Source: Candidatus Reidiella endopervernicosa (GTDB lineage: Bacteria > Pseudomonadota > Gammaproteobacteria > GCF-013343005). Taken from it: a DNA stretch of 64,000 nt. The notes beneath the pieces are model-generated. The model was not told the DNA's origin. It ran no database searches and saw nothing but the letters and a program-made list of their open reading frames with translations. The position numbers were made by a program, and so were the translations under genes. Below are positions 45,293 to 64,000 of the stretch, one piece after another. Positions within the stretch are counted from its first letter, which is position 1, and each line of letters starts with the position of its first letter. The stretch spans positions 2,152,501-2,216,500 of the forward strand of contig NZ_CP054491.1 in the NCBI RefSeq assembly GCF_013343005.1, read 5' to 3'.

Positions 45293-45313
45293 TACAACCG
45301 TATCGGGGTTCGG

Positions 45314-45335
45314 ATATGGCCGGTCAAGGCCATAT
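45314..45335 (+). terminator. hairpin between MCP and cheR
   Basis: ATATGGCC (45314-45321) and GGCCATAT (45328-45335) form a perfect 8-bp stem with loop GGTCAA. A run of seven T follows only at 45352-45358, 16 bases after the stem. It may be a weak terminator, an attenuator or a processing site. Confidence 0.4.
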
Positions 45336-45398
45336 TGAGAGCGATCTTCAGTTTTTTTCTGGTTAGATAGTTGATCTACCAGTAGCAGGTGATCCAGC

Positions 45399-46271
45399 TT
45401 GGCTTCAATTGCCACTAATAGAGCTGCGGATGGAAAGGAGTTCGGTTTTACTGACCAGAATTTCCATGCTATCCAGCAATTGGTCGGGGAACGGACTGGG
45501 ATTGTTCTCTCCGATGCTAAACGCGATATGGTCTACAGCCGGCTGGTTCGGCGGCTTAGGCAGTTGGGTCATGATAGTTTCGATAGCTATCTCGAGATGT
45601 TGGGAAGTGACCCAGGCGATGAGATGGGGCACTTTATCAATGCGATCACTACCAATCTCACCTCCTTTTTTCGTGAGAACCATCATTTCGAATTCCTGAG
45701 AGAGACATTGCTACCGGCCTTGCTGGAGGCGCACAAAATAACGCGTCGTATACGTATCTGGTCGGCGGGTTGTTCGACAGGCGAAGAGCCCTATTCGATT
45801 GCCATGACGGTGCGTGAGTTGATCCCTGAAAGTAGCGGCTGGGATATCAAAATATTAGCAACTGACCTGGACTCGAATGTAGTAGCAACGGCCAAACGAG
45901 GGGTTTATAGCGAAGATCGAATAAGTGGTATCCCGAAACAGAGACTCAAACGCTGGTTTCTAAGAGGTAAGGGTGAGAAGAGCGATCAGGTGCGTGTGCG
46001 AAGTGAGCTGCGCGACATGATCTCTTTTCGCCAACTCAACCTACTTCACGACTGGCCCTTCAAGGGGCCTTTGGATTTTATCTTTTGCCGTAACGTGGTT
46101 ATTTACTTCAACAAGGATACCCAGCGCAAACTGTTTGATCGTTATAGCAGGGTGCTCGCCGAGGATGGACACCTTTTCGTGGGCCACTCTGAATCGCTAT
46201 ATAAAGTGACAGACCGCTTTCACCTGCTCGGTAACACGATTTACCAGAAGGCAGAGGAGAGTAAGGGGTAA
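45399..46271 (+). CDS. cheR: chemotaxis protein methyltransferase CheR
   Basis: CheR methylates receptor glutamates using S-adenosylmethionine. The 290-residue protein has the N-terminal alpha domain, TTNLTSFFRENHHFEFL, the SAM-binding motif RIWSAGCSTGEEPYSIAM, and FIFCRNVVIYFNKDTQ. The start is taken as TTG 45399 with AGGTG upstream, since no in-frame ATG gives the full alpha domain. Its stop overlaps the cheD start (TAATG). The W-x-x-F tails of the two preceding MCPs are its expected docking sites. Confidence 0.93.
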   Translation: MASIATNRAADGKEFGFTDQNFHAIQQLVGERTGIVLSDAKRDMVYSRLVRRLRQLGHDSFDSYLEMLGSDPGDEMGHFINAITTNLTSFFRENHHFEFLRETLLPALLEAHKITRRIRIWSAGCSTGEEPYSIAMTVRELIPESSGWDIKILATDLDSNVVATAKRGVYSEDRISGIPKQRLKRWFLRGKGEKSDQVRVRSELRDMISFRQLNLLHDWPFKGPLDFIFCRNVVIYFNKDTQRKLFDRYSRVLAEDGHLFVGHSESLYKVTDRFHLLGNTIYQKAEESKG

Positions 46272-46924
46272 TGCATGAAAACTACTCCACTACCAGCTCT
46301 CCCCGAATGCCACGTTCACTGCCAGGATTCGAGGATGTCAAACGCTATTGGGATAAGACCAACGATATTTTTTCAGCAAAGATATTGCCGGGTGAATTCT
46401 ATGTAACGGCCAATGATGAGCTGATTACCACCGTGCTCGGTTCATGTGTCTCCGTATGTATACGTGATCGGATCTTTGGCATCGGGGGTATGAACCACTT
46501 TATGTTACCGCACGATAATTCGGGGACCGGCTCGTGGGTCGCAAGCGATAATGTCAGCGTCTCTACTCGCTATGGTACCTATGCGATGGAGCACATGATC
46601 AACGAAATACTCAAGAACGGTGGCAATCGGAAGAATTTTGAGGTCAAGGTCTTCGGTGGTGGCCGTATTCTGGCCAACATGACTGACGTGGGAATTAAGA
46701 ATATCAACTTTATTCATCACTTTTTACAGACCGAGTGTCTGGATATATTGTCCGAGGATGTGGGGGATATATATCCACGCAAAGTCGTCTTTTTCCCCAA
46801 AACAGGCAAAGCACGAGTTAAGAAACTGAAATCGCTGCATAACGATACGATCATCAAGCGTGAAGAGGCGTATATACACGATATCGATACACAGCCTATT
46901 ACAGGCGAAGTGGAGTTGTTCTGA
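46271..46924 (+). CDS. cheD: chemoreceptor glutamine deamidase CheD
   Basis: CheD deamidates receptor glutamines. The 217-residue protein has the catalytic Cys/His region TTVLGSCVSVCIRDRIFGIGG with NHFMLP following, and VFGGGRILANM. An N-terminal extension of about 55 residues precedes the core. The C-terminus ends GEVELF, resembling the GDIELF tails of two MCPs in the window. ATG 46271 overlaps the cheR stop. It precedes cheB by 45 bp. No lesions are visible. Confidence 0.94.
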   Translation: MHENYSTTSSPRMPRSLPGFEDVKRYWDKTNDIFSAKILPGEFYVTANDELITTVLGSCVSVCIRDRIFGIGGMNHFMLPHDNSGTGSWVASDNVSVSTRYGTYAMEHMINEILKNGGNRKNFEVKVFGGGRILANMTDVGIKNINFIHHFLQTECLDILSEDVGDIYPRKVVFFPKTGKARVKKLKSLHNDTIIKREEAYIHDIDTQPITGEVELF

Positions 46925-46969
46925 CGTTATGGCCACCTCGTATCACAATAGAAATGAGTTTGAAAAAGT

Positions 46970-48070
46970 ATGATCAAGGTCTTGATAGTCGACGATTCAG
47001 CGTTAATTCGTCAGGTGCTGAGAGAGATATTGGATGCTGATCCTGAGATTGAAGTGGTCGGAGCGGCAGTTGATCCCTATGACGCACGCGACAAAATCAA
47101 GGCGCTTAATCCCGATGTTTTGACGCTTGATGTAGAGATGCCGCGCATGGATGGCATTACCTTTCTCAAAAACTTGATGCGCTTAAGACCCATGCCGGTC
47201 GTCATGATTTCAACCCTGACCGAGCAGGGTGCGAGCGTGACCCTACAGGCGCTGGAGTTTGGTGCGGTCGATTTCATCAGTAAGCCGAAGCTGGACGTTT
47301 CTCAATCGATCGCAGAGTACGCTGAGGTGATTGTTGAGAAGGTTAAGGCGGCTGCTAGTGCCTCAATGCTGGTGCTTGGTCGGGCATCAAGAGAGACTAA
47401 GCCGCAGGGCGCAGCAGGGCAAGCACAGAGGCATATTAGGTCACTCGCAGCGGGTGCGGCGTATCAAGCAACGCATCGTTTGATCGCGATCGGCGCATCT
47501 ACCGGTGGTACTGAGGCGATCAAAGAGGTGTTGGAGGTGATGCCGGCCGATGCCCCCGGAACAGTGATTACTCAGCATATTCCTGCCATGTTCAGTAAAT
47601 CCTTCTCAGAACGGCTAGATTCACTCTCGGCGATGAAGGTCAAAGAGGCAGAGAATGGTGATTATGTATTACCGGGTCACGCCTTCGTTGCACCCGGCGA
47701 CTACCATATGGAGGTTAATCGAGATGGCGCAAGGTATGTGATTAGCCTCAATCAGAGTGACCCCGTAAACCGTCATCGTCCGGCCGTCGATGTGATGATG
47801 AATTCTGTGGCACGCAATGTGGGTAGTAACGCCATTGGCGTGATACTGACAGGCATGGGTGCTGATGGTGCTGCTGCAGGCATGCGTCAGATGCATGATG
47901 CGGGTGCGCCTACCATCGCTCAGGATGAGAAGAGTTGTGTGGTTTGGGGAATGCCTAAGGAGGCGGTCAACAAGGGAGGTGTCGATTTTGTGCTGCCGTT
48001 GAACAAGGTGGCGGACAAACTCCTTGATCTGGCTGCAGAAGTACCCAAATCGGCCGATAGAAATGGGTAA
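46970..48070 (+). CDS. cheB: chemotaxis methylesterase/response regulator CheB
   Basis: CheB removes receptor methyl groups when phosphorylated by CheA. Residues 1-120 are a receiver domain ([29 protein letters not shown]). The C-terminal methylesterase carries the triad regions [11 protein letters not shown] (Ser), TQHIPAMFS (His) and [11 protein letters not shown]-type sequence (here [13 protein letters not shown], Asp). At 366 residues the length is normal. A direct-repeat stretch lies just after the stop. No lesions are visible. Confidence 0.95.
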
Positions 48071-48090
48071 CAGTAAATCGGCTTCGGACC

Positions 48091-48122
48091 GCGGATCAGC
48101 GGATCAGCGGATCAGCGGATCA
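48091..48122 (+). repeat. four tandem copies of GCGGATCA
   Basis: GCGGATCA repeats four times without change at 48091-48122, followed by a partial fifth unit (GCGGCGAG). It lies in the 87-bp gap between cheB and the next MCP gene, about 35 bp upstream of that start. Copy number could vary by slippage and change spacing of leader elements; an expression effect is inference. Confidence 0.85.
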
Positions 48123-48157
48123 GCGGCGAGTCGTGGCAGGACGTCACACTTAAATGT

Positions 48158-49393
48158 ATGCAAGGCGATACGATGATTGATCGGATAAAAAAGCTATTCA
48201 CCACGCACTGGATTGAGAGTCTGGTTACATTACTGATTCTATTGCTACAGCCATTCCTGTCTGACATGGATGTGCCCTCATATGTTTCTGTCGTACTGCT
48301 GGCACTTACCTGGATAGTTGGGGCCTTTCTTCGCATCGAGATTGAGGTGGAAGAGGATGACTCACCCGATATGAATGGAGTTGCCAGCCTGGAGGCGGAG
48401 TTTGTACAGCTACAGAATTCAACCGAGCTCGAGGTGAAACAGCAGTTCGACCATATCCTCATTGAGTTATCCCAGGTGCGTGATCTGCAGGGCAATGCCA
48501 TAGCCGATCTGGTCACCAGCTTTACCGGTCTTGAGGCCGATGCACGTCGCCAGACCGAGATGGTGCATGAACTGATAGAGCGTATGTCGAACCATGGCGA
48601 TGATGGCGCTAGTGTTAAGCAGTTTATCGATGATTCACAAGAGCTGATCAATGAGTTTGTCGACAACATCACAGCAATGAGTGCATACAGCATGGAGCTG
48701 GTTGAGACGATGAATTTGATGAAGACGCAGATTGATAAAGTCGACCACCTATTGGGAGAGATTGACGGTATCAGTTCACAGACTGATCTGTTGGCACTCA
48801 ACGCAGCCATTGAAGCTGCACGTGCAGGTGAAGCAGGACGCGGATTTGCTGTGGTGGCCGATGAGGTCCGTTCGCTATCATCCAGAAGTCGGCAGTTCTC
48901 CAACCAGATCCGCGAGCAGTTTGCGGTTGCCAAGGGGACGATGGATAAAGGTGCGGGCATTGTTGGCAGAATGGCATCCAAAGACATGAGTATGTCGATG
49001 AACTCTCAGGACCACATCGGTGAGATGATGAGTGAGATCGGAACGCTGAATGACTATGTCTCAGATCACCTCAGTTCAGTCTCCTCAATCTCTGAAAGTA
49101 TTAGCCAAAATGTGGGCGTGGCCGTTCGCTCGTTGCAGTTTGAGGATATGACCAAGCAACTTGTCGATCATATGGAAAACCGAATCTCCGCATTACAGGA
49201 GTTTCTCGATATGGTTAAAGAGCTGCGTAATGATCTTGCGACATCAAAGTCGTCCCACGGTGTGTCACGTTTTGATGAGCATGCCGAGCGGCTACGCAGG
49301 GTGTTGCAGAAAGAGCACGGTACATTCGACAATACAAAACACAAGGCCATCGACCAGCAGAGCATGGACGATGGTGATATCGAACTGTTTTGA
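48158..49393 (+). CDS. short methyl-accepting chemotaxis protein without periplasmic sensor
   Basis: This 411-residue protein has two close hydrophobic segments (about residues 15-33 and 40-58) with hardly any loop, then a cytoplasmic helical region. A degenerate MCP domain has the tip [28 protein letters not shown]. There is no HAMP domain or recognisable sensor. The tail reads GDIELF. Such receptors may sense membrane state or internal signals. It follows cheB and precedes a single-domain response regulator by 34 bp, so the three may be co-transcribed. The start is ATG 48158; an ATG six codons in (48173) is an alternative. Confidence 0.88.
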
Positions 49394-49427
49394 TTGAAAT
49401 GGTATCAGCGGCAATTGATGGTGGGCT

Positions 49428-49799
49428 ATGGCAAAAATTCTAATCGTTGATGATGAAGAGCCCGTAAGGGCTATGCTACGCGATATGCTTGAGGTTCATG
49501 AGCATGAGGTGGAAGAGGCCGTTGATGGACGTGATGCCATTGAGTGTTATCGGCGTGGCCACTTCGATATGGTTATCACTGATCTGGTCATGCCCGATAT
49601 GAATGGTCTCGATCTGATTATGGCGCTGCGAGAAGAGAAGAAGGATGTAAAGATTCTGGCGATCTCAGGGGGCGGCGGGATTGTCGGAAGGTTTGACTAT
49701 CTACCCATTGCCAAACTCATTGGTGCCGAATCCATTTTGAAAAAACCGTTCGATCTGCAGCAATTCAGCAGTAGCGTGGCGAAGATACTTGATGCGTAG
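49428..49799 (+). CDS. single-domain response regulator
   Basis: This 123-residue receiver domain has KILIVDDEEPVRAMLRDML, phospho-acceptor D in MVITDLVMPDMNG, switch residue S in ILAISGGGG, and the lysine in ILKKPFD. There is no output domain. It is not a close match to the cheY at 38531. A partner kinase could be CheA or the hybrid kinase encoded downstream at 49914; neither is shown. The SGGGGIVGRFDYLPIAK segment is typical of stand-alone receivers in hybrid-kinase systems. Confidence 0.9.
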   Translation: MAKILIVDDEEPVRAMLRDMLEVHEHEVEEAVDGRDAIECYRRGHFDMVITDLVMPDMNGLDLIMALREEKKDVKILAISGGGGIVGRFDYLPIAKLIGAESILKKPFDLQQFSSSVAKILDA

Positions 49800-49913: not shown

Positions 49914-52696
49914 GTGGTCGATAACATAACCGAAAGTGGAAATCGTGCGTTGCAGACACTAAGTGCCTGCAATGAGGCAGTCATCCGTTCTAAAACTGAG
50001 GCTGAACTGTTTAGCAATATCTGTGAGGTTATCACCCATAGTGGTGGCTATCGCATGGCATGGGTAGGTACCGTTCAACACGATATCAATAAATCTATCT
50101 TGCCTGTGGCAAAGTCGGGGTTTGAGGATGGCTATCTTGAGAGTGCGAACCTTACCTGGGCCGAATATGCTCGTGGTCAGGGACCGGGTGGGTTAGCGAT
50201 TCGGAACCTTCAACCCGCCATCATCAGGGACGTGCAGACAGATGAGCGGTTTGCACCGTGGCGTGAGCAGGCGACATCACGCGGTTACGCCTCAGTAATA
50301 GGTCTACCGTTGATTGAGGAGGGCGTAGCCTTTGGTGTCTTATTAATCTACGCCTCTGAGAACGATGCCTTTGATAGTGATGAGGTCTCACTCCTGGTGC
50401 GCCTTAGTGACAATCTGGCCTTTGGCGTAACGGCGATAAGAAATCGGCTTGAGCGACGTACTACGGAGCAGGCGCTAAAGGCGAGTGAAGAGAGCCTCAG
50501 AGAGACTCAACATATCACCCACCTGGGTAGCTGGGTCTGGTCCAAACAGACCAGTGAGATGCGTTGGTCCGATGAGATTTTCCTGATCTTCGGCTTTTTA
50601 CCGGTCTCTATCAAACGCTGACCGCCATGGATAGCGAAGTGAGGGCGGTTAGTCCCCGATAGTCGACGCCGTCTGCCTATTCGTAGTTGAGAGCGCGAGC
50701 GAACGACGAAGAAGATGCAGCAGCGGCTTTATGTCGGCGTAGAGTCAGTGAGGAGTTGTGTAGAGCCGCGAAGAGGTGATTACGCAACGAACGCAGGACG
50801 GTCGGGGCGCCGTAGGCATAAACGGTCGCGTTAAGTATTTGCCGCTTGCTTGGGCTTGGAGGCCCAAAACAAGCTTCCGCAAAAATAGCGACTCCCCGGC
50901 CATCCTTCGAAACACTGCTCGCAATCGTTCAACCCAGAGATCGGCAGGTGGTTATGAAGGCCATCGAAAACACTCGAAAACATTATCTACCACTCGATAT
51001 CGAATTCAGGGTTGAGCGACGTGATGTCGGTGAGCGTACCGTTATCATGCGTGGACACGTCCATTTTGACGACAATGGCCGACTCTCACATATCATGGGT
51101 ACCATTCAGGATATCAGTGAGCAGACGAGTAACGAACGACAACTGCTGCTACAGAGAGCGGTGCTTGAATCGACGGACGATGCTGTCCTTATTACTGACG
51201 GTGAAGGTGTCATCGAGTGGGCTAACTCAGCAACGGAGAGGGTAACCGGATATGCGCTTGATGAGATGGTCGGGCAGACCCCGCGACTTCTTAAATCGGG
51301 CTCCCAAAGCGAAGCGTTTTATAACCAGCTGTGGGGAGTGATAACCACTGGGGAGTCGTGGCAGGGCGAGATGATTAATCGCCGTAAGGATGGTGCGCTC
51401 TACCATGAGGAGCAGACCATCACGCCGGTGATCAATAAGCGGGGGGAGATTACCCATTTTGTTGCTATAAAGCGCGATGTCAGTAAGCGCAAAGCGATGG
51501 AGCGTGAACAGCGTGAAGTGGAGAAACAGCTAAAGCAGGCTCAGAAGATGGAGGCGATTGGTCAGCTCACGGGAGGTATTGCACACGACTTTAACAATAT
51601 TCTTGCCAGCATCATGGGATACACCAGTCTCGCATTGGCCAGATTTACAAAGTCTCAAGACGAAAGCAGCAATAAACTTGCAGAGTATTTAAATCGTATA
51701 GATCAGGCGAGTCGACGTGCGCGTGATCTGATTGCACAGATGCTGGCATTCAGTCGTGCTGGTACAAGTGAGCCAAGGTCTCTGCCAGCGGCGCCGTTGG
51801 TCAAAGAGGCGATATCGCTACTGCGATCGACAATCCCTAGCAATATTACTATCGCGCTTAGCCTTGATGAGGATCTTCCACCGATTAACTTTGATCCGAT
51901 TCAATTCCATCAGGTGATTATGAACCTCTGTATCAATGCCCGAGATGCGATCGCAGAGAGTGGCTGTATTGATGTAAAACTCAACTTAACAACAATTGTT
52001 AATGATAGTTGTGCCTCTTGCCAGAGTGGTGTTTCTGGTGACTATGTGGAGCTCTCCGTTAGTGATAGTGGTAGTGGTATTGATCCTGAAAATTTAATGC
52101 GTGTTTTCGACCCCTTTTTTACCACCAAGGAGGTGGGTAAGGGGAGTGGCATGGGGCTCTCTATGGTGCATGGCATCGTGCACGAATATGGCGGACATAT
52201 TCTGGTCAATACGAAACCCGAGGGTGGAACTGACTTTAGGGTGTTGGTCCCAGCGTCAGCGGTGAATGACTCGGAAGAACTCAGTGTGCCCACCCAGTCA
52301 ATTGTTGATGGAGTCGTTACACCAGCCCGAATACTATTGGTCAACGATGATCACTCCGTTGCAGGTTTTATTGCGGAGCTACTGGAAAGTATCGGCTATC
52401 AGGTGGTTGTCACCACTGAAGAGAAGCAGATTGTTGATAGTGCACGTGAGCAGCTTAAGCATATCGATCTCCTCATTGCTGACTATGCAATACCGGGCAT
52501 GACCGGGGTCGAGCTGGCCAAGGATCTACGTCAGCAACGAGAAGATCTGCCGGTACTCATTCTGTGCAGCGGTAACTCTGAACAGCCTCAATCGCCCGAG
52601 TGGCTAGAGAACCCACTCAACGGCTTTGTACGAAAACCGATCGATAACCAGCTGCTGTTATCGACTATTAGAAAACTACTCGACGGTGACGATTAG
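49914..52696 (+). pseudogene. GAF-PAS-PAS hybrid histidine kinase, interrupted by repeat element F
   Basis: With repeat F (50616-50899, 284 bp) removed, the protein is 832 residues. It has a GAF domain (about 12-185), a PAS domain (195-310) that holds the insertion point after residue 234, and a second PAS (320-440, DDAVLITDGEGVIEWAN). A HisKA domain has its histidine in GGIAHDFNNILA near 462, followed by HATPase (NLCINARDAI, FFTTKEVGKGSGMGLSMV). A C-terminal receiver has aspartate in LLIADYAIPGMTG. The insertion falls between codons and separates FLPVSIK from PSFETLL. Both halves are intact. As written, translation ends in the repeat and the kinase half would be unexpressed. The GTG start at 49914 lacks a strong ribosome site. 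Confidence 0.88.
50616..50899 (+). mobile_element. gene-interrupting repeat, copy F (in hybrid kinase, sense)
   Basis: This 284-bp copy begins CGCTGACCGCC and ends AGCGACTCCCCGG, with flanks ATCAAA and CCATCC and no target duplication. Its 3' hairpin has GCTTG (50844-50848) with CAAGC (50870-50874), like copy D, so D and F form one subfamily and B, C and E another. Its hairpin loop is TTGGAG instead of TTGGAT. Confidence 0.88.
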
Positions 52697-52718: not shown

Positions 52719-55136
52719 TTAGAAATCGATTCTATAGCCGGCCGTCAGGTAGTAGCCGTGTGTATTGGTGGTATCGCTAGCCAGCTGCTCGGTCGACCAG
52801 TCACCACTCGCCTCCAGTTCAAAGTGAATACGACGTTTCCAACGGTAGTCCATACGGACCGCCGGTGAGAGGGTCCACTGGGTTCGGCCATCGTTTTTAT
52901 TGTCGCGGTAACTCAGTTTCACACGCGGATTGAGGCGCCAGTTACTGGTGATTGGATAACGGGTGTTGAGCAACATCGTGGTGGTACTCGAGGTGCTACC
53001 GTCGGCAAAGCGTAGGCCGAGTACGGCCGTATCGCCTTGTTTGATCAGATTACTGCCCATCAACTGCATGTTGTAGTAGTACTCGTTACCGGTTCCCGGT
53101 ATCGCCTCAACTCCGCCTGATGCGGGCGTCCCCTGTAGGTTGGTGGCGGTGATGTCGGCGTTGAGCTGAACCTGCTCTGAGATCGGCGTGGAGAAACCGA
53201 ATACTGCAGTGTTACTACGTGCAGTACGATCAACTGCCAATTGGCGAATCTCCGACTCGGTGAAGCTGCTGAGCAGCTGTTCAACACCCTCGACCAGCTG
53301 TCCCTGAATTGCATTGCGAGTGGTAAGAATCGGCGTGAGACGGTGGTCGAGTGTGAGATTGATGTTGCTGTGGGAGCCGATCTTCCAGTTGCCCAGCAGC
53401 ATCACGGTGTTGAGCTCGTCGTAGGAGATGTCGTAGTCGACCAGTCCTAGTAGTGAACGCTCAGGGTGGAAGTAGCGCAGCTCGGCACCGACGGCACGTC
53501 GATCGGTAATGTCGGCAACACGCTGCTCGATGATAAAGGGGCTGAAGTCCCAGGCGTTAAAGAAGGTGCCAAGGTCGATACTCGCACCGACAAAATTGCG
53601 GTCTGTGGTGAGGGGATCAGAGGTACGATCGACCGGGAAGCCTGCAACCATGTTGAGCTTGCCCCAAGAGGTGGCCTGATAGCTGAGCAGGCCACCATCG
53701 AAACGTCCCAATACACCGCCACTACTGCGAGTCTGACGCCCAACGCGACCGCTAAGCCCGGATGGTTTGTGACTGGCTTCAGCGTAGAGAGAGCTGATAC
53801 GGCTCTCGTTATCTTCACCATCATTAAGGAAATCGTGCAGATATCCACCAGTAAAACGGGTGCGGAACTCGCTATCATGACTGCGCCTGCGACTGGTGAC
53901 ATCAAGGTCGGTGGAGAGTGAGGACTGGTTAACCGTCGACTCCTCCTCATCAATGCTGTTGATGTCACGTCGATAGTATTGAGAGAAACCACCAAACAGA
54001 GTCCACTGCGCCTCATCAATGGTACGTTTTCCCTTGGCCGCACGCAGGCTCTCCTTGGGGCGGTCGGGGGCACTGATCAGTGCTGCTAGACGCTGTCGCA
54101 CACGCTCAGCTGGCTCTCCCTCTGGATAGAGCGAGAGGTACTGCTCATAGGCTGCCTTGGCCTGAGCCAGCTGTCCGTTACGCTCACGCGCACTTCCAAG
54201 CAACTCCAGTGCCTGCTGTCCCTTTGGATTCTCTTTATGTTCGATCAGACGCGCATAGATACGGATGGCACGACCGTAGTCGCTGCCCAACATCGCCTTG
54301 CGAGCCTCCTCCATCAGCGATTCGATACGCTCAAGCGGCAAAGGCGGTCGGGTGGCCAAGGGGGTTGCGACAGGTTTCACAGCGGCTGTTTCCGTCTTCT
54401 TCTCGACCTCGCTCTGACTGGCGCGGGCAACCCACGCCTTGGGATAATTGGCAGTGAGCTGCTTGAGCATCTCGCTGGCCTCACTACGGGTGGCAAAAAA
54501 GCCGAGGCGCAGGCGATACCAGGTACGCTGATTCTGTTCAAAATCGACCACATAGGCCTGTCGCCTGGCGTGCTGTTTGAGGCTGGCGTGATCTGCCAGA
54601 TCGATTGGCTTGAGTGAAGACTCGAGGTTGATCACATAGGGGAGGGAAACCAGTGTCGCTGCTTTGCTGGTCGATGGCTTAGGTGTGGCTGATGTCACTC
54701 GTGGTAGTCGGATCGTCAGACCCTGCATGTCGGGATCAGGATTGACCTCGTAGTCGGTTACGCGGCTGAAACTGACAATCAGAGTGTAGTCATCCTGACC
54801 GCGTCCTTCGTAACGTACCTCGTCCAGTGGCACATCGCGACTCGAATCCCAGGTGACCTGCTCCTCGCCAATTAACATGTTATCGCTATCGATGCGTATA
54901 TCTCGCGGGCGCAGACTGATCTGCAGCTCCTTGCCATGGCTATGGGGTGCATGAGAGAGATACTGCATCGCGGTGCTGAAGCGGATCTGCAGTGTGACGG
55001 AGGATTGTTCGACCGTTGGCAGGATATCCTCAATCATCCGCACCTCAGCAGCGGCGCTGCCGATGTTGATCAGCAGCAGCGGAAGTAGGAGTGCTACAGC
55101 GAGTAGTGTTCTAAGGCGTTGGATAGTTATATACAT
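52719..55136 (-). CDS. SPOR-TPR protein with C-terminal outer-membrane beta-barrel
   Basis: A signal peptide (about 1-30, ending SAAAEV) is followed by an AMIN-like beta domain, a SPOR-like domain (about 165-235: YRLRLGFFATRSEASEMLKQL), and TPR helices (about 270-345). From about 375 to the end there are alternating polar/apolar strands typical of an outer-membrane barrel. The last residues, YRIDF, end in phenylalanine as barrel proteins do. It is the last gene of the multihaem cytochrome operon, 19 bp after the largest cytochrome. I infer an outer-membrane partner for the cytochromes, in the role MtrB/PioB plays elsewhere, though it is not recognisably MtrB. Confidence 0.78.
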   Translation of the reverse strand: MYITIQRLRTLLAVALLLPLLLINIGSAAAEVRMIEDILPTVEQSSVTLQIRFSTAMQYLSHAPHSHGKELQISLRPRDIRIDSDNMLIGEEQVTWDSSRDVPLDEVRYEGRGQDDYTLIVSFSRVTDYEVNPDPDMQGLTIRLPRVTSATPKPSTSKAATLVSLPYVINLESSLKPIDLADHASLKQHARRQAYVVDFEQNQRTWYRLRLGFFATRSEASEMLKQLTANYPKAWVARASQSEVEKKTETAAVKPVATPLATRPPLPLERIESLMEEARKAMLGSDYGRAIRIYARLIEHKENPKGQQALELLGSARERNGQLAQAKAAYEQYLSLYPEGEPAERVRQRLAALISAPDRPKESLRAAKGKRTIDEAQWTLFGGFSQYYRRDINSIDEEESTVNQSSLSTDLDVTSRRRSHDSEFRTRFTGGYLHDFLNDGEDNESRISSLYAEASHKPSGLSGRVGRQTRSSGGVLGRFDGGLLSYQATSWGKLNMVAGFPVDRTSDPLTTDRNFVGASIDLGTFFNAWDFSPFIIEQRVADITDRRAVGAELRYFHPERSLLGLVDYDISYDELNTVMLLGNWKIGSHSNINLTLDHRLTPILTTRNAIQGQLVEGVEQLLSSFTESEIRQLAVDRTARSNTAVFGFSTPISEQVQLNADITATNLQGTPASGGVEAIPGTGNEYYYNMQLMGSNLIKQGDTAVLGLRFADGSTSSTTTMLLNTRYPITSNWRLNPRVKLSYRDNKNDGRTQWTLSPAVRMDYRWKRRIHFELEASGDWSTEQLASDTTNTHGYYLTAGYRIDF

Positions 55137-55155
55137 GGGTCGATCCAGTTATGGG

Positions 55156-58100
55156 TTAATCGAAAGATGAGTCGCTGACGCGATGCTCGCCAGACTCACG
55201 TTCTTTTATCGTGCTCATCGAACTATTGGTGTAGACGTGACAACTACCACTGCAGTCGCGCAGTTCGCTCACTGAGTAGTAGCCATCGGGATTCTCATGC
55301 TTCTTGTGCTCATCGCGCTCGTAATCACCCGCATGGCAGCCTGCGCAATCGGGTTTATAGGCACCGCTGCTCCAGGTCACCTGTTCACTATTGGAGCGGT
55401 GGCAGCTGCTGCAGCTGAGGTTGCCACGATGGTCGCCAGGGTAGGCGGCTGAACTGTGACGGAAGGTGGTCGGTGTCCAACTCGTATTGCGATGGCAACT
55501 ATCGCAGCTCTGGCTGGTAATGAAGTGACTACTGGGTTTGCCCGGTGCTGAAACACCGTTATGACAGCTGGTACAGCTTCCGCTGACATCGTCATGGCTG
55601 AAGGTTGCCGGCAACCAGGCTCGAATGGTGTGGCAGATATCACACTGGGCGCTGGTGGTGATATGGGTCAGCGGTTTTCCGCTTGAAGTGACTCCGTTAT
55701 GACAGCTACTACAGGTGCCAGCTGAGACCTGATTGTGATCAAACAGTGCCGGTGTCCAGCCGTTGGTGCTGTGGCAGTCATCACAGCTATTGCCGCTGGG
55801 CAGGTGATTGACCGGTTTGCCAAGTGCCGTAGAGCCGTTGTGACAGCTTGAACAGGTGCCTAGTACAGAGAGGTGTTCAACGCGAATCACCGGCGACCAG
55901 CTACGGTTGCTGTGGCACTCCTCACAGCTATTGGTAGTGCTGATGTGCTGAGTGTTCTTACCGGTTGCTGAGACGCCGTTATGGCAGCTCGAACAGCTGG
56001 CGCTCACACTGCTGTGATCAAAGTTGGCCGGTGACCAAGCGTTGCTGGTATGGCAGTCATCACAACTATTACTGCTAGCAATGTGGTTGGAAGGTTTACC
56101 CAACGCGGTGGAGCCGTTATGACAACTGGAGCAGGTGCCGAGTACGGCCAAGTGCTCAACCCGAATCACCGGTGACCAGCTGCGGTTGGAGTGGCACTCG
56201 TCGCAGCTGTTGGTCGAGCTGATGTGTTGCGCCGTTTTCCCGGTGGCTGAGACACCGTTGTGACAACTCGAACAGCTAGCGGTCACTGCAGAGTGATCGA
56301 AGTTCGCAGGGCTCCAGGCGTTGCTGCTGTGGCAATCATCACAGCTATTACCACTGACAATATGGTTAGACGGTTTACCGAGTGCCGTGGAACCGTTGTG
56401 ACAACTTGAGCAGCTACCCACCACGGCGAGATGTTCGACGCGGATAACTGGCGACCAGCTACGATTACCGTGGCACTCGTCACAGCTGTTGGTAGAGGCG
56501 ATATGTTGCACCGATTTGCCGGTTGCACTCACGCCGTTATGACAGCTACTGCAGCTGGCAGAGACTGTCGAGTGGTCAAAGTTGGCGGGACTCCAGGCGT
56601 TGCTGGTATGGCAGTCGTCACAGCTATTGCCACTGGTTATGTGATTTGACGGTTTGCCGAGGGCTGTAGAACCGTTGTGACAACTTGAGCAGCTACCAAC
56701 GACGGCGAGATGCTCCACGCGGATCACTGGCGACCAGCTACGGTTGCCGTGACACTCCTCACAGCTGTTGGTAGTGGCAATGTGTTGAACGTTTTTACCC
56801 GTCGCTGAAACACCGTTATGACAGCTGCTGCAGCTCGCTGAGACCGTTGAATGATCGAAGTTGGCCGGGCTCCATGCGCTACTGGTGTGGCAGTCATCAC
56901 AGCTGTTACCGCTAGCAATATGATTCGAAGGTTTGCCTGGTGCCGTCGAGCCGTTGTGGCAGCTGGAACAGCTACCGGTGACGGCCAGATGTTCAACACG
57001 GATCACCGGTGACCAGCTGCGGTTGGAGTGACACTCTGCGCAACTGTTGGTACTCGAGATGTGTTGTACGTTTTTACCTGTGGCCGAGACACCGTTATGA
57101 CAGCTCGAGCAGCTGGCAGTCACACTGTTGTGATCAAAATTGGCCGGAGACCAGACGCTGCTGGTATGACAGTCGTCACAGCTGTTACCACTCGTAATGT
57201 GGTTGGACGGTTTGCCGAGGGCGGTGGAACCGTTGTGGCAACTGGAACAGGTTCCAAGTACCGCCAGATGTTCGACACGGATCACCGGTGACCAGCTGCG
57301 GTTGCCGTGGCACTCGGCGCAACTATTTGTCGAACTGATGTGTTGGGTATTTTTCCCAGTTGCCGAGACGCCGTTATGACAGCTTGAACAGCTGGCGGTC
57401 ACGCTGGAGTGGTCGAAGTTGGCCGGGCTCCACGCAGTGGTCGAGTGACAGTCACTGCAGCTGCTGTTGCTCGGTATATGGTTTGAGCTTTTACCCAGTG
57501 CGGTTGCGCCGTTGTGACAGCTTGAGCAGGTACCGGTCACCGCCAGATGCTCGACGCGAATCACCGGTGACCAGCTGCGGTTACTGTGACACTCCTCGCA
57601 GGCGTTGGTGGTTGTGATGTGTTGTGGCGTCTTCCCTTCGGCGCTGGTTCCGTTATGACAGCTAGAGCAACTGCCACTGACGTTGGAGTGGTCGAAGTTG
57701 GCGGGCGACCATGCCGAGGTGGAGTGACAGTCGCTACAATTATTGCCGCTTGTGATGTGGTTCGAGGATTTACCGAGTGCTGTGGCACCGTTATGACAGC
57801 TGGAGCAGGTACCGGTCACCGCCAGATGTTCAACCCGGATCACCGGTGACCAGCCACGGTTAGAGTGACAATCCTCACAGACGTTGGTGGTGCTGAGGTG
57901 CTGCGTGCTCTTACCCGTCGCCGAGACACCGTTGTGGCAACTCAAACAGCTGGCGGTAATGGCAGAGTGATCTAAGTTGGCTGGCGACCAGGCGTTACTG
58001 GTGTGGCAGTCGTCGCAGCTATTACCACTGGCGATATGGTTGGACGGTTTACCCAGCGCCGTGGCACCGTTGTGACAGCTCGAGCAGCTCCCCTGTACTG

Positions 58101-60240
58101 CCAGGTGGTCAACACGAATTACCGGTGACCAGCTACGGTTGGAGTGGCAATCCTGACAGCTGCTGGTGGAGCCGATGTGACCACTGTTCTTTCCGGTGGC
58201 AGAGCTACCGTTGTGACAGCTGGAACAGCTACTGGTCACCGCGTCGTGATCGAAATTGGCCGGGCTCCATGCCGTGCTGGTGTGGCAGTCGTCACAGCTA
58301 TTACTGCTTACGATGTGGTTGGCGGTTTTACCCAGTGCGGTCGAGCCGTTATGGCAGCTACTACAGGTTCCCGAGACGGCCAGATGTTCGACTCGAATCA
58401 CAGGCGACCAGCTACGGTTGGAGTGGCACTCGCCACAGGCATTCGTAGTCGCGATGTGTTGGCTCGTTTTTCCACTTGCCGAGATGCCGTTATGACAGCT
58501 GCTACAGGTGCCAGAAGCGTTTGAGTGGTCAAAGTTCGCAGGGGACCATGCCGTTGTTGAATGGCAATCGCTACAACTACTACTGCTTGGGATGTGGTTG
58601 GATGATTTGCCCAACGCAGTCGAGCCGTTGTGACAGCTACTACAGGTGCCGCTGACGGCCAGATGATCAACGCGAATCACGGGTGACCAGTTGCGGCTGT
58701 TATGGCACGACTCACAGCTGCTATTACTGGCGATATGCTGTGAGGTTTTACCCGTTGCCGAACTCCCGTTGTGACAACTCGAGCAGCTACCCGAGGCATT
58801 GGAGTGGTCGAAATTGGCCGGGCTCCAGGCGTTGCTGGTATGGCAGTCGCTGCAGACGCTGCCACTGGGGATATGGTTGTTTGTCTTGCCGGGAGCGGTG
58901 GTGTCGTTGTGGCAGCTCGAGCAGCTACCGTTCACCGCCAGGTGATCGACCTTGATGGCGGGTGACCAGTCGCGGTTGGAGTGGCAGCTCTCACAGCTAT
59001 TGTTCGTTGCCAGATGCAACACCGTTTTCCCAGTTGCCGAGATGCCGTTGTGACAGCTACTGCAGCTCCCTGAGATAGAGGCGTGATCGAAATCAGCCGG
59101 TAGCCATCCACTGCTGCTGTGGCAGTCGTCGCAGCTATTACTACTGGCAATATGGTTGGCCGGTTTACCGAGAGCAGCAGCGTTGTTGTGACAGCTTGAG
59201 CAGGTGCCGGTCACAGCCAGATGCTCAACCTTGATTACCGGTGACCAGCTGCGGTTGGAGTGACACTCCTCACAGACGCTGGTGGTAGAGAGGTGTTGTG
59301 TCGTTTTGCCGGTGGCCGAGACGCCGTTGTGGCAGCTAGAACAGCTGCTGGTAATAACGCTGTGGTCGAAGTCGGCCGGTGTCCAGGCGCTGCTGGTATG
59401 ACAGTCGTCGCAACTGTTGCTACTGGCGATATGGTTGGCTGGCTTACCAAGTGCCGTTGAATTGTTGTGACAGCTAGAGCAGGTGCCGAGCACAGCGAGG
59501 TGGTCGACACGAATCGCAGGCGACCAGCCTCGTGTGGCGTGGCAGGTTTCACAGCTATTGGTGGTGGCTATGTGACGGCTCGATTTTCCATCGGTGATCA
59601 CGCCGTTGTGGCAGCTAGTACAGTTCCCCTCAATACCGGTGTGATCAAAGGTGGTCGGACTCCAGGCGGTAGTGGTGTGACAATCGTTGCAGCTGTTATC
59701 ACTACTGACATGGTTGATTGATTTACCCTCAGCGGTAACGCCGTTATGACAACTGAGGCAGGAAGCGGTAATGCCTACATGATTGAAACGGGCCGGTGTC
59801 CAGGCGGTGGAGGAGTGACAGTCACTACAGCTACTGGAGCTGCTGACGTGGTTGATTGATTTGCCGGTTGCGTTGCTACCGTTGTGACAGCTGGTGCAGT
59901 TGCCCACCACCGCCAGATGATCGACCTCACGCGCGGGTGACCAGCCGCTGCTGCTGTGGCAACTGTCACAGCGACTGCTAGTCGGAAAGTGTTTTGCGTG
60001 TTTGGCCGAGGCCTGCACACGGCCGGTGCTGCCGTGGCAACCGCTGCAGGTTGTCGGTGCCGATCTAAACTCCCCATTGAGGTGACAGCTGGTGCAGCTG
60101 GTGGTGGCATGTGCGCCATCGAGTGAAAAGCCTGTAGTGAAGTGGTCGAATGCCGCATTGTTGGCCGCCTGAGTCGTTACCGTGAATAGCAGCATTAGCG
60201 CCAACACAATCGTACGAGCGATGTTCACTGGGTTTGGCAT
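55156..60240 (-). CDS. giant multihaem cytochrome c, about 69 CxxCH motifs
   Basis: After a signal peptide (MPNPVNIARTIVLALMLLFT and the next residues) the protein is almost wholly made of a repeat of about 98 residues with four CxxCH sites. The pattern is CSSCHNG-x-ATGK-HI-CxxCH-SNRSWSPVIRVEHL-CSSCHNG-x-ALGK-NH-CDDCH-AWSPANFDH. By hand I count 69 CxxCH and one CxxxCH (CSGSCH near the C-terminus). Histidines in the NH, EHL/DHL and FDH positions are likely distal haem ligands. The C-terminal 200 residues are nearly the same as in the next cytochrome. The ATG at 60240 is chosen because the signal peptide starts there. It is probably exported and long-range electron-conducting; the partner is unknown. 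Confidence 0.9.
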   Translation of the reverse strand: MPNPVNIARTIVLALMLLFTVTTQAANNAAFDHFTTGFSLDGAHATTSCTSCHLNGEFRSAPTTCSGCHGSTGRVQASAKHAKHFPTSSRCDSCHSSSGWSPAREVDHLAVVGNCTSCHNGSNATGKSINHVSSSSSCSDCHSSTAWTPARFNHVGITASCLSCHNGVTAEGKSINHVSSDNSCNDCHTTTAWSPTTFDHTGIEGNCTSCHNGVITDGKSSRHIATTNSCETCHATRGWSPAIRVDHLAVLGTCSSCHNNSTALGKPANHIASSNSCDDCHTSSAWTPADFDHSVITSSCSSCHNGVSATGKTTQHLSTTSVCEECHSNRSWSPVIKVEHLAVTGTCSSCHNNAAALGKPANHIASSNSCDDCHSSSGWLPADFDHASISGSCSSCHNGISATGKTVLHLATNNSCESCHSNRDWSPAIKVDHLAVNGSCSSCHNDTTAPGKTNNHIPSGSVCSDCHTSNAWSPANFDHSNASGSCSSCHNGSSATGKTSQHIASNSSCESCHNSRNWSPVIRVDHLAVSGTCSSCHNGSTALGKSSNHIPSSSSCSDCHSTTAWSPANFDHSNASGTCSSCHNGISASGKTSQHIATTNACGECHSNRSWSPVIRVEHLAVSGTCSSCHNGSTALGKTANHIVSSNSCDDCHTSTAWSPANFDHDAVTSSCSSCHNGSSATGKNSGHIGSTSSCQDCHSNRSWSPVIRVDHLAVQGSCSSCHNGATALGKPSNHIASGNSCDDCHTSNAWSPANLDHSAITASCLSCHNGVSATGKSTQHLSTTNVCEDCHSNRGWSPVIRVEHLAVTGTCSSCHNGATALGKSSNHITSGNNCSDCHSTSAWSPANFDHSNVSGSCSSCHNGTSAEGKTPQHITTTNACEECHSNRSWSPVIRVEHLAVTGTCSSCHNGATALGKSSNHIPSNSSCSDCHSTTAWSPANFDHSSVTASCSSCHNGVSATGKNTQHISSTNSCAECHGNRSWSPVIRVEHLAVLGTCSSCHNGSTALGKPSNHITSGNSCDDCHTSSVWSPANFDHNSVTASCSSCHNGVSATGKNVQHISSTNSCAECHSNRSWSPVIRVEHLAVTGSCSSCHNGSTAPGKPSNHIASGNSCDDCHTSSAWSPANFDHSTVSASCSSCHNGVSATGKNVQHIATTNSCEECHGNRSWSPVIRVEHLAVVGSCSSCHNGSTALGKPSNHITSGNSCDDCHTSNAWSPANFDHSTVSASCSSCHNGVSATGKSVQHIASTNSCDECHGNRSWSPVIRVEHLAVVGSCSSCHNGSTALGKPSNHIVSGNSCDDCHSSNAWSPANFDHSAVTASCSSCHNGVSATGKTAQHISSTNSCDECHSNRSWSPVIRVEHLAVLGTCSSCHNGSTALGKPSNHIASSNSCDDCHTSNAWSPANFDHSSVSASCSSCHNGVSATGKNTQHISTTNSCEECHSNRSWSPVIRVEHLSVLGTCSSCHNGSTALGKPVNHLPSGNSCDDCHSTNGWTPALFDHNQVSAGTCSSCHNGVTSSGKPLTHITTSAQCDICHTIRAWLPATFSHDDVSGSCTSCHNGVSAPGKPSSHFITSQSCDSCHRNTSWTPTTFRHSSAAYPGDHRGNLSCSSCHRSNSEQVTWSSGAYKPDCAGCHAGDYERDEHKKHENPDGYYSVSELRDCSGSCHVYTNSSMSTIKERESGEHRVSDSSFD

Positions 60241-60262
60241 GATCGACTCTCTATCCATGTTG

Positions 60263-62173
60263 TTAGTCAAAATCGGAATCGCTGACGCGGTGTTCGCTCG
60301 AGCGCCGCTTTTTAATGCTTGTCATCGAACTGTTGGTATAGACGTGACAGCTACCCGAGCAGTCGCGTAGCTCACTCACCGAGTAGTAACTGTCGGGGTT
60401 CTCATACTTCTTGTGTTCATCACGCTCATAGTCACCCGCGTGGCAGCCAGCGCAGTCGGGTTTATAGGCGCCGCTCGACCAGGTGACCTGTTCGCTATTA
60501 CTGCGGTGGCAACTGGTGCAGCTGAGGTTGCCACGGTGGTCGCCAGGGTAGGCGGCTGAGTTGTGACGGAACGTCGTGGGTGTCCAGCTGCTATTGCGAT
60601 GACAGCTATCGCAGCCCTGACTGGTGACAAAGTGATTGCTCGGCTTGCCCGGTGCTGAGGTGCCGTTATGACAACTGGCACAGCTACCGGTGACGTCATC
60701 ATGGTTGAAAATCGCCGGTAACCAGGCACGGATAGAGTGGCAGATGTCGCACTGTGCTGAGGTCTGTAGATGGGTTAGCGGTTTACCGGTCGCAGTTAGC
60801 CCGTTGTGGCAACTGCTGCAGGTGCCGGGCGAGACCTGATTGTGATCAAACAGCGCCGGTGTCCAGGCGTTGGTGTTGTGGCAGTCGTCGCAACTGTTAC
60901 CGCTGCTGAGATGGTTGGCCGGTTTGCCAGCGGCAGTGGAGCCGTTATGACAGCTTGAACAGCTGCCGGTGACTGAGAGGTGGTCAACTCGAATCACCGG
61001 CGACCAGCTACGATTGGTGTGGCAATCCTCACAGCTATTGGTGGTGGCGATGTGGCGTGTGTTCTTGCCCGTTGCCGTGGTGCCGTTGTGACAGCTGATG
61101 CAGTTGGATGAGACGCTGGAGTGGTCGAATCCGGCCGGACTCCAGGCGCTAGTGGAGTGACAGTCGTCGCAACCACTACCGCTGGCAATGTGGTTGGCTG
61201 GTTTACCCTCGGCAGTGGAGCCGTTGTGACAGCTTGAGCAGCTGCCGGTCACGGCCAGGTGGTCGATACGGATTACAGGCGACCAGCTGCGGTTGCTGTG
61301 ACAATCCTCGCAGCTATTGGTTGAAGCGATGTGGCGTACGTTTTTACCGGTGGCTGCAATGCCGTTATGACAGCTTGAGCAGCTGCCAGTGGCGTTATCG
61401 TGATCGAAATTGGCCGGGCTCCAGGCGTTGGTCGAATGACAGTCATCGCAGCTGCTGCCACTGGTAATGTGGTTAGCGGTTTTACCCGTGGCGGTCGAGC
61501 CGTTATGGCAGCTTGAGCAGCTACCGAGCACGGCCAGATGATCGACGCGAATCACAGGCGACCAGTCGCGGCTTGAGTGACACTCCTCACAGGCGTTGGT
61601 GGTACTCATGTGACGCACCCCTTTGCCCTCAGCCGTCACTCCGTTATGGCAGCTGCTGCAGCTGGCGGTGATGTCGATATGGTTAAAACGGGCCGGGCTC
61701 CAGGCGGTGGAGGAGTGGCAATCGCTGCAGTTACTCGAGCTGCTGACGTGATTGAACGTTTTCCCTTCAGCGCTGCCGCCGTTGTGACAGCTGCTGCAGC
61801 TACCCAGAACCGAGAGATGATCGACCTGACGCACAGGAGACCAGCCGCTGCTGCTGTGACAGTCATCGCAGCTGGAGCTGGTGGAGATATGGCGTGCATC
61901 CTTGCTCGAAGCCTTGATCCGACTGCCGCTGGAGTGACAGCTGCTACAGCGTGTCGGAGCCCCTTTGAACTCACCGCCGATGTGGCAACTGGTGCAGTTG
62001 GTCGAGGCGTGTGCTCCTTCGAGTGGGAAGCCGGTGGTGAAGTGGTCAAAACGCTCTGCGGCGGCAATGGAGGGGAGGAAGACGAGTAGCAGTAGCATCA
62101 GCACCATCAGCAGTATGTGGTGAAGTGACTCGGTCGATAGTTGGCGAATCAGTTTTTGTATTCCGATATCCAT
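60263..62173 (-). CDS. multihaem cytochrome c, about 23 CxxCH motifs
   Basis: This paralogue of the giant cytochrome has the same repeat, fewer copies and nearly the same ends. It has a signal peptide (HHILLMVLMLLLLVFLPSIAAA), the start FDHFTTGFPLEGAHASTNC, and the end RDCSGSCHVYTNSSM...EHRVSDSDFD. I count 23 CxxCH plus one CxxxCH in about 636 residues. ATG 62173 with GGGAG five bases upstream is preferred over GTG 62179. It lies 13 bp after the 21-haem gene. The giant gene probably arose from such a unit by internal amplification. Heme attachment needs Ccm proteins encoded elsewhere. Confidence 0.9.
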   Translation of the reverse strand: MDIGIQKLIRQLSTESLHHILLMVLMLLLLVFLPSIAAAERFDHFTTGFPLEGAHASTNCTSCHIGGEFKGAPTRCSSCHSSGSRIKASSKDARHISTSSSCDDCHSSSGWSPVRQVDHLSVLGSCSSCHNGGSAEGKTFNHVSSSSNCSDCHSSTAWSPARFNHIDITASCSSCHNGVTAEGKGVRHMSTTNACEECHSSRDWSPVIRVDHLAVLGSCSSCHNGSTATGKTANHITSGSSCDDCHSTNAWSPANFDHDNATGSCSSCHNGIAATGKNVRHIASTNSCEDCHSNRSWSPVIRIDHLAVTGSCSSCHNGSTAEGKPANHIASGSGCDDCHSTSAWSPAGFDHSSVSSNCISCHNGTTATGKNTRHIATTNSCEDCHTNRSWSPVIRVDHLSVTGSCSSCHNGSTAAGKPANHLSSGNSCDDCHNTNAWTPALFDHNQVSPGTCSSCHNGLTATGKPLTHLQTSAQCDICHSIRAWLPAIFNHDDVTGSCASCHNGTSAPGKPSNHFVTSQGCDSCHRNSSWTPTTFRHNSAAYPGDHRGNLSCTSCHRSNSEQVTWSSGAYKPDCAGCHAGDYERDEHKKYENPDSYYSVSELRDCSGSCHVYTNSSMTSIKKRRSSEHRVSDSDFD

Positions 62174-62185
62174 AATCACTCCCGG

Positions 62186-63772
62186 CTACTGCCGCGGCAG
62201 AACGATCTCTTCAAATTGAGTCGGCAGGTGACACTGCTCACACTGCTTGCCGAATGTGCCCCAGTGGGCATCCTCGTCGCGATGACAGCTGATGCAGCGA
62301 CGTGGCTCTGCGCGCTGCTCGGTGACCGGATCGATATGACACGCCTCACACTTGAGGCCGCGATGCGAACCCTCGAGTCGGTATTTGGTCTGGGTGTCGT
62401 GATCGAAGAGCCATAGCTTCCAGTCGTTGGGGTTGTGGCAACTGGCGCACTGTTTACCGAGCAGTCCCTCGTGGCTGTCATCCTGTTGATGACAGGCGTA
62501 ACAGTCGCGTTCGGTCTGCTGATAACTCCGGTCGAGATGACACTCACCACAGGGGGTGGTGGTGTGCAGGCCGATCAGGGGAAAGCGGGTCAGGTCGTGG
62601 TCGAAGGCGATCTTCTTGCGCCAGTTATCACTGTTGTGGCACTGCTGGCACTCTTTACCTAGTTTGCCACCGTGTGGATCATCAACCTTGTGACAGGAGG
62701 TGCAGCTCTTTTCTGGCTTCTTCTCAAACAGCCCCGCCTGATGGCAACTGCTACAACTTAGATCACCATGTTTTCCATCCAGTGAGAACTTGGTGTCGCG
62801 TTGATGATCAAACCTGGTCTTGCTCCAGCTCTCGTTGTTGTGGCACTTGTCGCACTTCTCACCAAAACTGCCGCGGTGTCGATCACGCTGCTGATGGCAG
62901 GCGATACAGGTTTTACCCGGGTTGCCCTTGTTATCGGCCCGGTTGAGTTTGCTGTTGTGGCAGCTGTTACAGGCGAGTTTGGTGTGCACGCCACGGAGTG
63001 GGAATTCGGTTTTTTTGTCGTGATTGAACTCTCCCTTCTCCCACTTCTCGTTGTTATGGCAGCTCTCACACTTTTCCCCAAAACCACCCAGATGGATGTC
63101 GTTGATCTGGTGGCAGGCGATGCACTGCTTGGGTGTCTTTTTATAGCGTTGATCGATGTGGCAGCTGTTACAGCTCGCCTTCTTATGTGCGCCCTTGAGC
63201 TTGAAGTCACTTTTGTCGTGGTCAAAACGATTCTTCTGCCAGCCTGTAGTTGAGTGACAGTCGTTACACTTCTTGCCCAGATTACCGCGATGTGGGTCGT
63301 CGCTTTTATGGCAGTCGATACAGAGCTGAGGCGTGTCGCGGTGTTTGCGATCTTTGGGGTGACAGGCGATACAGGCGACCTGTTGGTGACGCTTTTCGAG
63401 TTTGTAGTCGGTCAGGTCGTGATCAAAACCGTGTGGATCGAGGTGTACGATCTTTTTGTCACGCCCCTTGTGATCGGTATGGCAACTGCGGCAGGCGGTT
63501 TCGCCTACCGCGCTATCGAGACCGTGGTATCCCTCATCTTTGTTGATGTCGGCCGCCACCTTCTCGTGGCAGTCGAGACAGAGCGTGCGCTGTTCATCCT
63601 TGCTGAAGTTGGCGTGGCAGCGTTCACACTGCTCCTCATACTTGGCGTGTCCCTCGATCACCTTGCCCGGCATCAACAGGGTTTCGAACGAGGCGGCCCA
63701 TAGCGGACTGGAGCCGAGCAGCAACAGTGCAAACAGAAAAATCTCGCCAATGTTGTTGGGCATATTGCTCAT
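62186..63772 (-). CDS. multihaem cytochrome c, about 21 CxxCH motifs, Lys-rich
   Basis: A signal peptide (FLFALLLLGSSPLWA) is followed by about 500 residues with 21 CxxCH sites. The repeat differs from its two neighbours: CxxCH-x-D-DPHRGxLGKKCxxCH-xxxW-FDHD-xxF-L-GxHxxxxCxxCH, with many Lys and Asp residues in place of Ser and Asn. This is the cytochrome c3/c7-like pattern seen in periplasmic or surface electron carriers. Its ATG overlaps the stop of the upstream membrane protein (TGATG). I infer a periplasmic link between an inner-membrane donor or acceptor and the larger cytochromes. Confidence 0.9.
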   Translation of the reverse strand: MSNMPNNIGEIFLFALLLLGSSPLWAASFETLLMPGKVIEGHAKYEEQCERCHANFSKDEQRTLCLDCHEKVAADINKDEGYHGLDSAVGETACRSCHTDHKGRDKKIVHLDPHGFDHDLTDYKLEKRHQQVACIACHPKDRKHRDTPQLCIDCHKSDDPHRGNLGKKCNDCHSTTGWQKNRFDHDKSDFKLKGAHKKASCNSCHIDQRYKKTPKQCIACHQINDIHLGGFGEKCESCHNNEKWEKGEFNHDKKTEFPLRGVHTKLACNSCHNSKLNRADNKGNPGKTCIACHQQRDRHRGSFGEKCDKCHNNESWSKTRFDHQRDTKFSLDGKHGDLSCSSCHQAGLFEKKPEKSCTSCHKVDDPHGGKLGKECQQCHNSDNWRKKIAFDHDLTRFPLIGLHTTTPCGECHLDRSYQQTERDCYACHQQDDSHEGLLGKQCASCHNPNDWKLWLFDHDTQTKYRLEGSHRGLKCEACHIDPVTEQRAEPRRCISCHRDEDAHWGTFGKQCEQCHLPTQFEEIVLPRQ

Positions 63773-64000
63773 CAGTACATGTGCACTGCGACGATATGGA
63801 CGATGCCGGCCACGACCATCATCAGGAAGAAGGGGAGGTGGAAGAGGTGCCAGAGGGCGAATAGGCGTTCAAAAACGTTTAACTGCACGACTTTGCGTGC
63901 AGTGTGGAAGAAAGCGGTTGTCTCGCGAATACTCTCTCGTCTTCTTTGTCGCTGCTCCGGGCGACTCCAGCCCTGTTTGGCAGCGACTGCCTTGATCGAT
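63772..64000 (-). CDS. C-terminal part of a membrane protein (cut by window end)
   Basis: The frame enters at 64000 and ends with TGA at 63772-63774, giving the last 75 residues. A basic stretch (RPEQRQRRRESIRE) is followed by FERLFALWHLFHLPFFLMMVVAGIVH and IVAVHMY, one long hydrophobic segment with several histidines that could ligate haem b. It overlaps the 21-haem cytochrome gene by one base, so it is in the same operon. I infer an inner-membrane b-type cytochrome or related quinone-linked protein; the full gene is needed to name it. Confidence 0.6.
   Translation of the reverse strand, partial: SIKAVAAKQGWSRPEQRQRRRESIRETTAFFHTARKVVQLNVFERLFALWHLFHLPFFLMMVVAGIVHIVAVHMY

Follow-up and report, generated by a model that had tools for sequence, protein, structure and literature searches.

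Porin-cytochrome clusters and PCC3

PCC3 is a kind of porin-cytochrome cluster that He et al. described in 2017 (PMC5566968), and the PCC3 literature defines it as four genes. These encode an inner-membrane protein (IMP) of about 300 amino acids with two WX3HX13H motifs and one SGXXG motif, an adjoining multihaem cytochrome (MHC) of about 21 haems, a very large repetitive extracellular MHC and a beta-barrel porin. Both clusters of Sideroxydans ES-1 (Slit_0867-0870 and Slit_1446-1449) show this set, with the same IMP signature, a 21-haem MHC, a giant repetitive MHC of low complexity and a large porin. The four histidines of the IMP signature in PCC3 and PCC4 were proposed as ligands of two b haems (He et al. 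2017, PMC5566968). PCC4 has a five-transmembrane-helix IMP with two HX13H motifs, as in PCC3, but three periplasmic MHCs and no extracellular one (PMC5566968). MtrCAB, MtoAB and PioAB follow the same logic of a porin with periplasmic and surface multihaem cytochromes; they use a decahaem inner cytochrome, a CymA-type tetrahaem cytochrome and a porin of the MtrB_PioB family.

PCC3 has been called functionally unverified (PMC12442390), and no biochemical test of any PCC3 was found in the searched literature. The cluster is widespread, since a scan of about 85,000 species genomes with an IMP alignment gave 353 IMP relatives.

The PCC3 locus and its relatives

The window, i.e. the whole stretch of 64,000 bases analysed here, belongs to a host genome that consists of one contig (G000:C1) of 3,446,950 bases. 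At the end of the window, on the minus strand, lies an operon whose genes run head to tail, with spacings from a short overlap to a 19-base gap. By its sequence the cluster is a PCC3, as it combines a signature IMP of about 300 residues with a 21-haem cytochrome of the periplasmic type, a giant cytochrome built of repeats and a large porin. The C-terminal part of the IMP is encoded at 63772..64000 (minus strand), and the gene runs on to window-equivalent 64647. Reading upstream of 64000, as the first-pass annotation had advised, yielded the rest of this 291-residue proposed di-haem b protein (L001:12772-13647) and with it the complete PCC3 signature. The stop codon of the IMP gene shares one base with the start of the next gene; the latter (62186..63772, minus strand) encodes the 21-haem cytochrome, of 528 residues, which has a Sec-type signal and is assigned to the periplasm by its likeness to the PCC3 periplasmic MHC. 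Two predicted outer cytochromes follow on the same strand, one of 638 residues with a Sec-type signal (60263..62179) and one of 1704 residues (55156..60270), and the porin, of 805 residues (52719..55136, minus strand), comes last.

The order of membrane segment, 21-, 23- and 69-haem cytochromes and SPOR-TPR-barrel protein, which the first-pass annotation had given, agrees with the open reading frames and motif counts, and its total of about 113 CxxCH motifs is matched by a count of 113, to which only some CX3CH motifs have to be added. Its proposal of a conduit across the envelope, made of a b-type protein, cytochromes and a barrel, is still the best reading of the cluster; its description of the parts as unfamiliar was mistaken, as they are the PCC3 set of He et al. 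(2017). Whereas MtrCAB, MtoAB and PioAB have a decahaem cytochrome and a CymA-type protein, here a 21-haem cytochrome and a b-type IMP are found. PCC4 does not fit, the cluster having one 21-haem MHC and two long outer-type MHCs with conserved ends of their own. In comparison with described PCC3 clusters, two outer MHCs (23 and 69 CxxCH) stand in tandem, and genes for an FAD/Fe-S oxidoreductase and a Sel1-ankyrin protein are linked to the cluster. A second extracellular cytochrome has been reported in one PCC3 cluster of the Leptothrix group (PMC13386937).

Gene order was surveyed in 80 loci of the 353 IMP relatives, and the order IMP, 21-haem cytochrome, variable cytochrome and porin was conserved. 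Among the 31 well-covered loci, i.e. those with 6 kb or more of upstream and 9 kb or more of downstream sequence, the porin was present in 30, the outer cytochrome in 29, the oxidoreductase in 30 and the Sel1-ankyrin protein in 28. Five PCC3-like clusters (L050, L056, L064, L081 and L094) have an 18-haem periplasmic cytochrome that is not directly followed by an outer cytochrome; L064 and L094 do have a porin gene, which is placed beyond the genes for the ankyrin protein and the oxidoreductase.

A chemotaxis operon (43625-49799), whose genes were named by sequence inspection alone, adjoins the PCC3 operon of the host and encodes methyl-accepting proteins, CheR-, CheD- and CheB-like proteins and a response regulator. 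A gene for a GAF/PAS hybrid histidine kinase (49914-52696) also lies beside the PCC3 operon and is interrupted by a copy of a repeat (50616-50896) that is treated below.

Multihaem cytochromes

The three cytochromes hold 21, 23 and 69 CxxCH motifs, against 0.3, 0.3 and 0.9 expected in shuffled sequences. Each of the two outer cytochromes has one more C-terminal motif of the CX3CH form (CSGSCH), so that the haem motifs may total 21 + 24 + 70 = 115. The gene of the larger protein contains a 279-bp tandem repeat in 13.6 copies, with a unit of 93 residues and four haems, which corresponds to the very large repetitive MHC of PCC3, predicted to be extracellular. Base identity between its haem units is 72% at a distance of four units, 43% at two and 35% at one. 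In both outer cytochromes, the haem unit has 23-24 residues and, in nearly every case, exactly one extra histidine, which would suit bis-His ligation. The two proteins share N- and C-terminal caps, with 108 of the 120 C-terminal residues identical.

Across related loci, which are related to each other and hence give counts that are not independent, the periplasmic cytochrome has 21 haems in 58 of 70 cases and a multiple of three (18, 21, 24, 27 or 33) in 68 of 70. The outer cytochromes range from about 9 to 69 CxxCH; among 49 complete ones, the count is odd in 46, and a terminal CX3CH or CX4CH is found in 41, the total then being even in 39 of these 41. The periplasmic cytochromes vary in steps of three haems and the outer ones in steps of two, apparently a new observation with respect to the searched literature. 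A nearly fixed inner wire and a variable outer wire, with steps of three and two haems, give a simple structural rule for these giant cytochromes.

The large cytochromes could also serve as a periplasmic electron store or as a sulfur or redox buffer, with the barrel serving something else. None of the cytochromes carries a lipoprotein signal and, to our knowledge, no export route for the outer ones is known, both of which would fit such a store; however, the porin stands beside the cytochromes in all but one of the well-covered loci, and the wide range of outer haem counts, set against a mostly constant 21 in the periplasmic protein, suits different compartments. A storage role is considered very improbable.

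Porin

Pfam searches identified SPOR (E 3e-8) and TPR (E 7e-5) domains in the porin. An AlphaFold2 model built from 35 homologues (md4489ab4adf7; mean pLDDT 85, pTM 0.57) gave a beta domain at residues 35-145, SPOR at about 167-238, TPR at about 268-355 and a barrel of 22 strands at 378-804; the C-terminal residue of the protein is Phe. Foldseek and VIA-align matched the model to outer-membrane barrels in the PDB, the best being PirA (Z 15.6, rmsd 3.9 over 372 residues). The first-pass annotation had suggested strand prediction as a check and a non-barrel fold for 52719-55136 as evidence against its proposal; with 22 modelled strands, the barrel fold stands. In 2017, up to 42 transmembrane regions had been predicted for PCC3 porins (PMC5566968).

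The MtrB_PioB family (PF11854) had no match over the cut-off in the host genome and none in the porin. The first-pass annotation had counted the barrel among its unfamiliar parts, which does not hold: of 35 PCC3 porins, 22 gave a SPOR match and 24 a TPR_16 match, so that the SPOR-TPR-barrel design is general in the group. A novel porin family, considered as a candidate, was rejected as this is the usual PCC3 form. The family profile of the porin also matches the DamX chain (E 4e-5). SPOR domains are established as peptidoglycan-binding. A search for literature combining multihaem cytochromes with SPOR returned none.

Inner-membrane protein

In the IMP, WX3HX13H occurs twice, at residues 85 and 266, and the SGXXG motif takes the form SGLIG at 126. 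The candidate b-haem ligands H89, H103, H270 and H284 are conserved without exception across 21 homologues. Pfam and NCBIfam gave no match to the 291-residue protein, and the ferric reductase transmembrane domain (FRD) of Pfam was not matched. Searches of the PDB by sequence and by fold returned merely common helical arrangements; in the fold search, the IMP model had no convincing match among solved cytochrome b or ferric-reductase folds, and cytochrome b561 (Z 8.2 over 106 residues) was too weak a match for use.

The FAD/Fe-S oxidoreductase and the Sel1-ankyrin protein

The FAD/Fe-S and ankyrin genes of the host lie divergent, beyond the window, and change the likely mechanism. The oxidoreductase starts with one hydrophobic helix followed by basic residues, after which come two Fe-S motifs and an FAD-NAD(P)H domain of the TrxR/FNR/YpdA type; mean column identity in its alignment is 59%. 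The second Fe-S motif, CxxHxxCxxxC, keeps its His in all of 31 sequences, and in the first a Ser replaces the second Cys in some sequences. The Sel1-ankyrin protein is probably periplasmic, as it begins with a signal-like hydrophobic segment.

The oxidoreductase gene was placed divergently upstream in 49 loci, co-directionally upstream in 14 and convergently downstream in 4; L088 is the one well-covered locus with no oxidoreductase gene nearby. In a set of 185 relatives, a full-length oxidoreductase was found in all 21 other genomes with an IMP at E<1e-30 and in 1 of 163 without one, the exception being G177, which is 72% complete (Fisher p = 1e-26, relatedness among genomes uncorrected). Three genomes (G033, G035 and G100) have two IMP and two oxidoreductase copies each, while G085 and G001 carry the IMP gene and the oxidoreductase gene on separate contigs. 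G097 gave a partial oxidoreductase match at 52% identity. Genomes with merely distant IMP-like matches had no full-length oxidoreductase, and in a phylum sample the IMP came with the oxidoreductase in 3/3.

A search of the main texts of several PCC3 papers found no mention of ankyrin or of a pyridine (oxidoreductase) protein, and no paper was found that combines porin-cytochrome with ankyrin. The partnership of the oxidoreductase with PCC3 is apparently new, as far as the searched literature goes. A co-inherited flavoprotein of the NAD(P)H type offers a testable electron entry point and a marker gene for PCC3; this conserved partner and the stepwise haem counts raise the interest of the cluster, as they make PCC3 function directly testable.

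Proposed electron path

Given the regular company of the oxidoreductase, PCC3 would appear to be coupled to NAD(P)H and not to quinones only. It is probable that the PCC3 conduit forms one electron path across both membranes, from NAD(P)H to outer haem wires. NAD(P)H would reduce the N-terminally anchored FAD/Fe-S oxidoreductase at the cytoplasmic face, which would pass electrons to the IMP, and two b haems would carry them across the inner membrane. The 21-haem wire, of fixed length with seven three-haem modules, would then cross the periplasm to the 22-strand barrel, which the SPOR domain could hold to the peptidoglycan. Beyond the barrel, electrons would reach the outer multihaem wires with 24 and 70 haem motifs, which would grow by two-haem steps between conserved ends, and the Sel1-ankyrin protein may act as a periplasmic scaffold. 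What was observed by computation are the parts, the PCC3 signature, the conserved gene order, the strict pairing of the oxidoreductase with PCC3 and the stepwise haem counts; we infer that the oxidoreductase feeds electrons to the IMP.

Electrons that leave NAD(P)H for the outside run downhill and are helped by the membrane potential, while uptake into NAD(P)+ would require donors of very low potential. A mainly outward flow of electrons has a chance that falls just short of even. Somewhat more tentatively, PCC3 might be a six-component, split export line resembling NADPH oxidase, running from NAD(P)H through a di-haem b protein to the outside, and not a quinone-linked iron oxidase. The likeness to NADPH oxidase and ferric reductase, which is one of logic only, lies in paired histidines for two b haems and in the proposed NAD(P)H-FAD input; here, in contrast, the flavin enzyme is a separate protein of the TrxR/FNR type with Fe-S clusters.

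He et al. proposed the opposite direction on the basis of habitat and of the likeness of the IMP to di-haem b domains (PMC5566968). Fe(II), minerals or partners outside the cell would supply electrons, these would enter through the porin and the periplasmic wire, and the IMP would reduce the quinone pool; the FAD/Fe-S protein would then be a side enzyme or would serve reverse electron flow to NAD(P)+. The host has two RuBisCO genes and dsrA over the cut-off, which suggests a sulfur-oxidising autotroph. Such an organism could use extra donors, and export of NADPH electrons would be an odd need for it. In ES-1, however, growth on Fe(II) went with lower expression of both PCC3 clusters (PMC8788666), and all listed proteome conditions gave 0 for the extracellular cytochrome Slit_1448 (PMC12016527), so that Fe(II) oxidation is not favoured there by the published expression data. 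A quinone link alone would also leave the strict co-occurrence with a flavoprotein of the NAD(P)H type unexplained, and uptake is regarded as a possible but doubtful role. The path from NAD(P)H outward has further points against it, namely the missing fold match of the IMP model, the locus L088 and the state of the oxidoreductase gene in the host.

Interrupted oxidoreductase gene and a genome-wide repeat

In the host, the oxidoreductase gene is split in two by a repeat that occurs throughout the genome and whose copy here measures 282 bp, whereas the core genes are unbroken. The first part closes with SYR and the second opens with ARTLLLAIGRRG; both fit the family alignment without loss, and no second full-length copy was found in the host genome. 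A frameshift or sequencing error was ruled out by the repeat copy inside the gene. With the sole oxidoreductase interrupted and the core genes unbroken, the core may work without the oxidoreductase, as uptake to quinones would allow, or may be degenerating; because of the split, quinones may be the sole exchange partner of the conduit in this host, or the conduit may be in decay.

Decay would mean that the insertion broke the oxidoreductase and that the conduit no longer works. The lack of another copy fits this, as do the about 354 genome copies of the repeat, many of them within long ORFs. Against it, the IMP, the three cytochromes and the porin are intact, and the long tandem repeat of the 69-haem gene reads through without a stop; loss of function is held to be unlikely.

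The repeat has a nominal length of 283 bp and a range of 280-285 bp (CGCTGACCGCCATGGATAGCGAAG...GACTCCCCGA), with 183 of its copies forward and 171 reverse (control 0). The compared copies are 92-99% identical, with no obvious target duplication. Six lie in the window, at 3278-3564 (minus strand), 27688-27968, 30588-30870, 34058-34339, 37484-37765 (minus strand) and 50616-50896, and three in L001, at 14785-15066, 17508-17788 and 18143-18429. Among the exact matches listed, the repeat is on the plus strand at 0.1-1.7 Mb and mostly on the minus strand at 3.0-3.4 Mb. About half of 30 checked copies break long ORFs, in both orientations, and these ORFs rejoin cleanly when the copy is removed. A self-splicing intron was ruled out, as the copies stand in either orientation with respect to the ORFs that they break and have no Rfam match. 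A few other Gammaproteobacteria carry about 150 bp of the 5' end of the repeat at 79-84% identity. The Sel1-ankyrin gene ends within the copy at L001:17508-17788, which is the source of its last residues (about GLPLTAMDSEARAVSPR).
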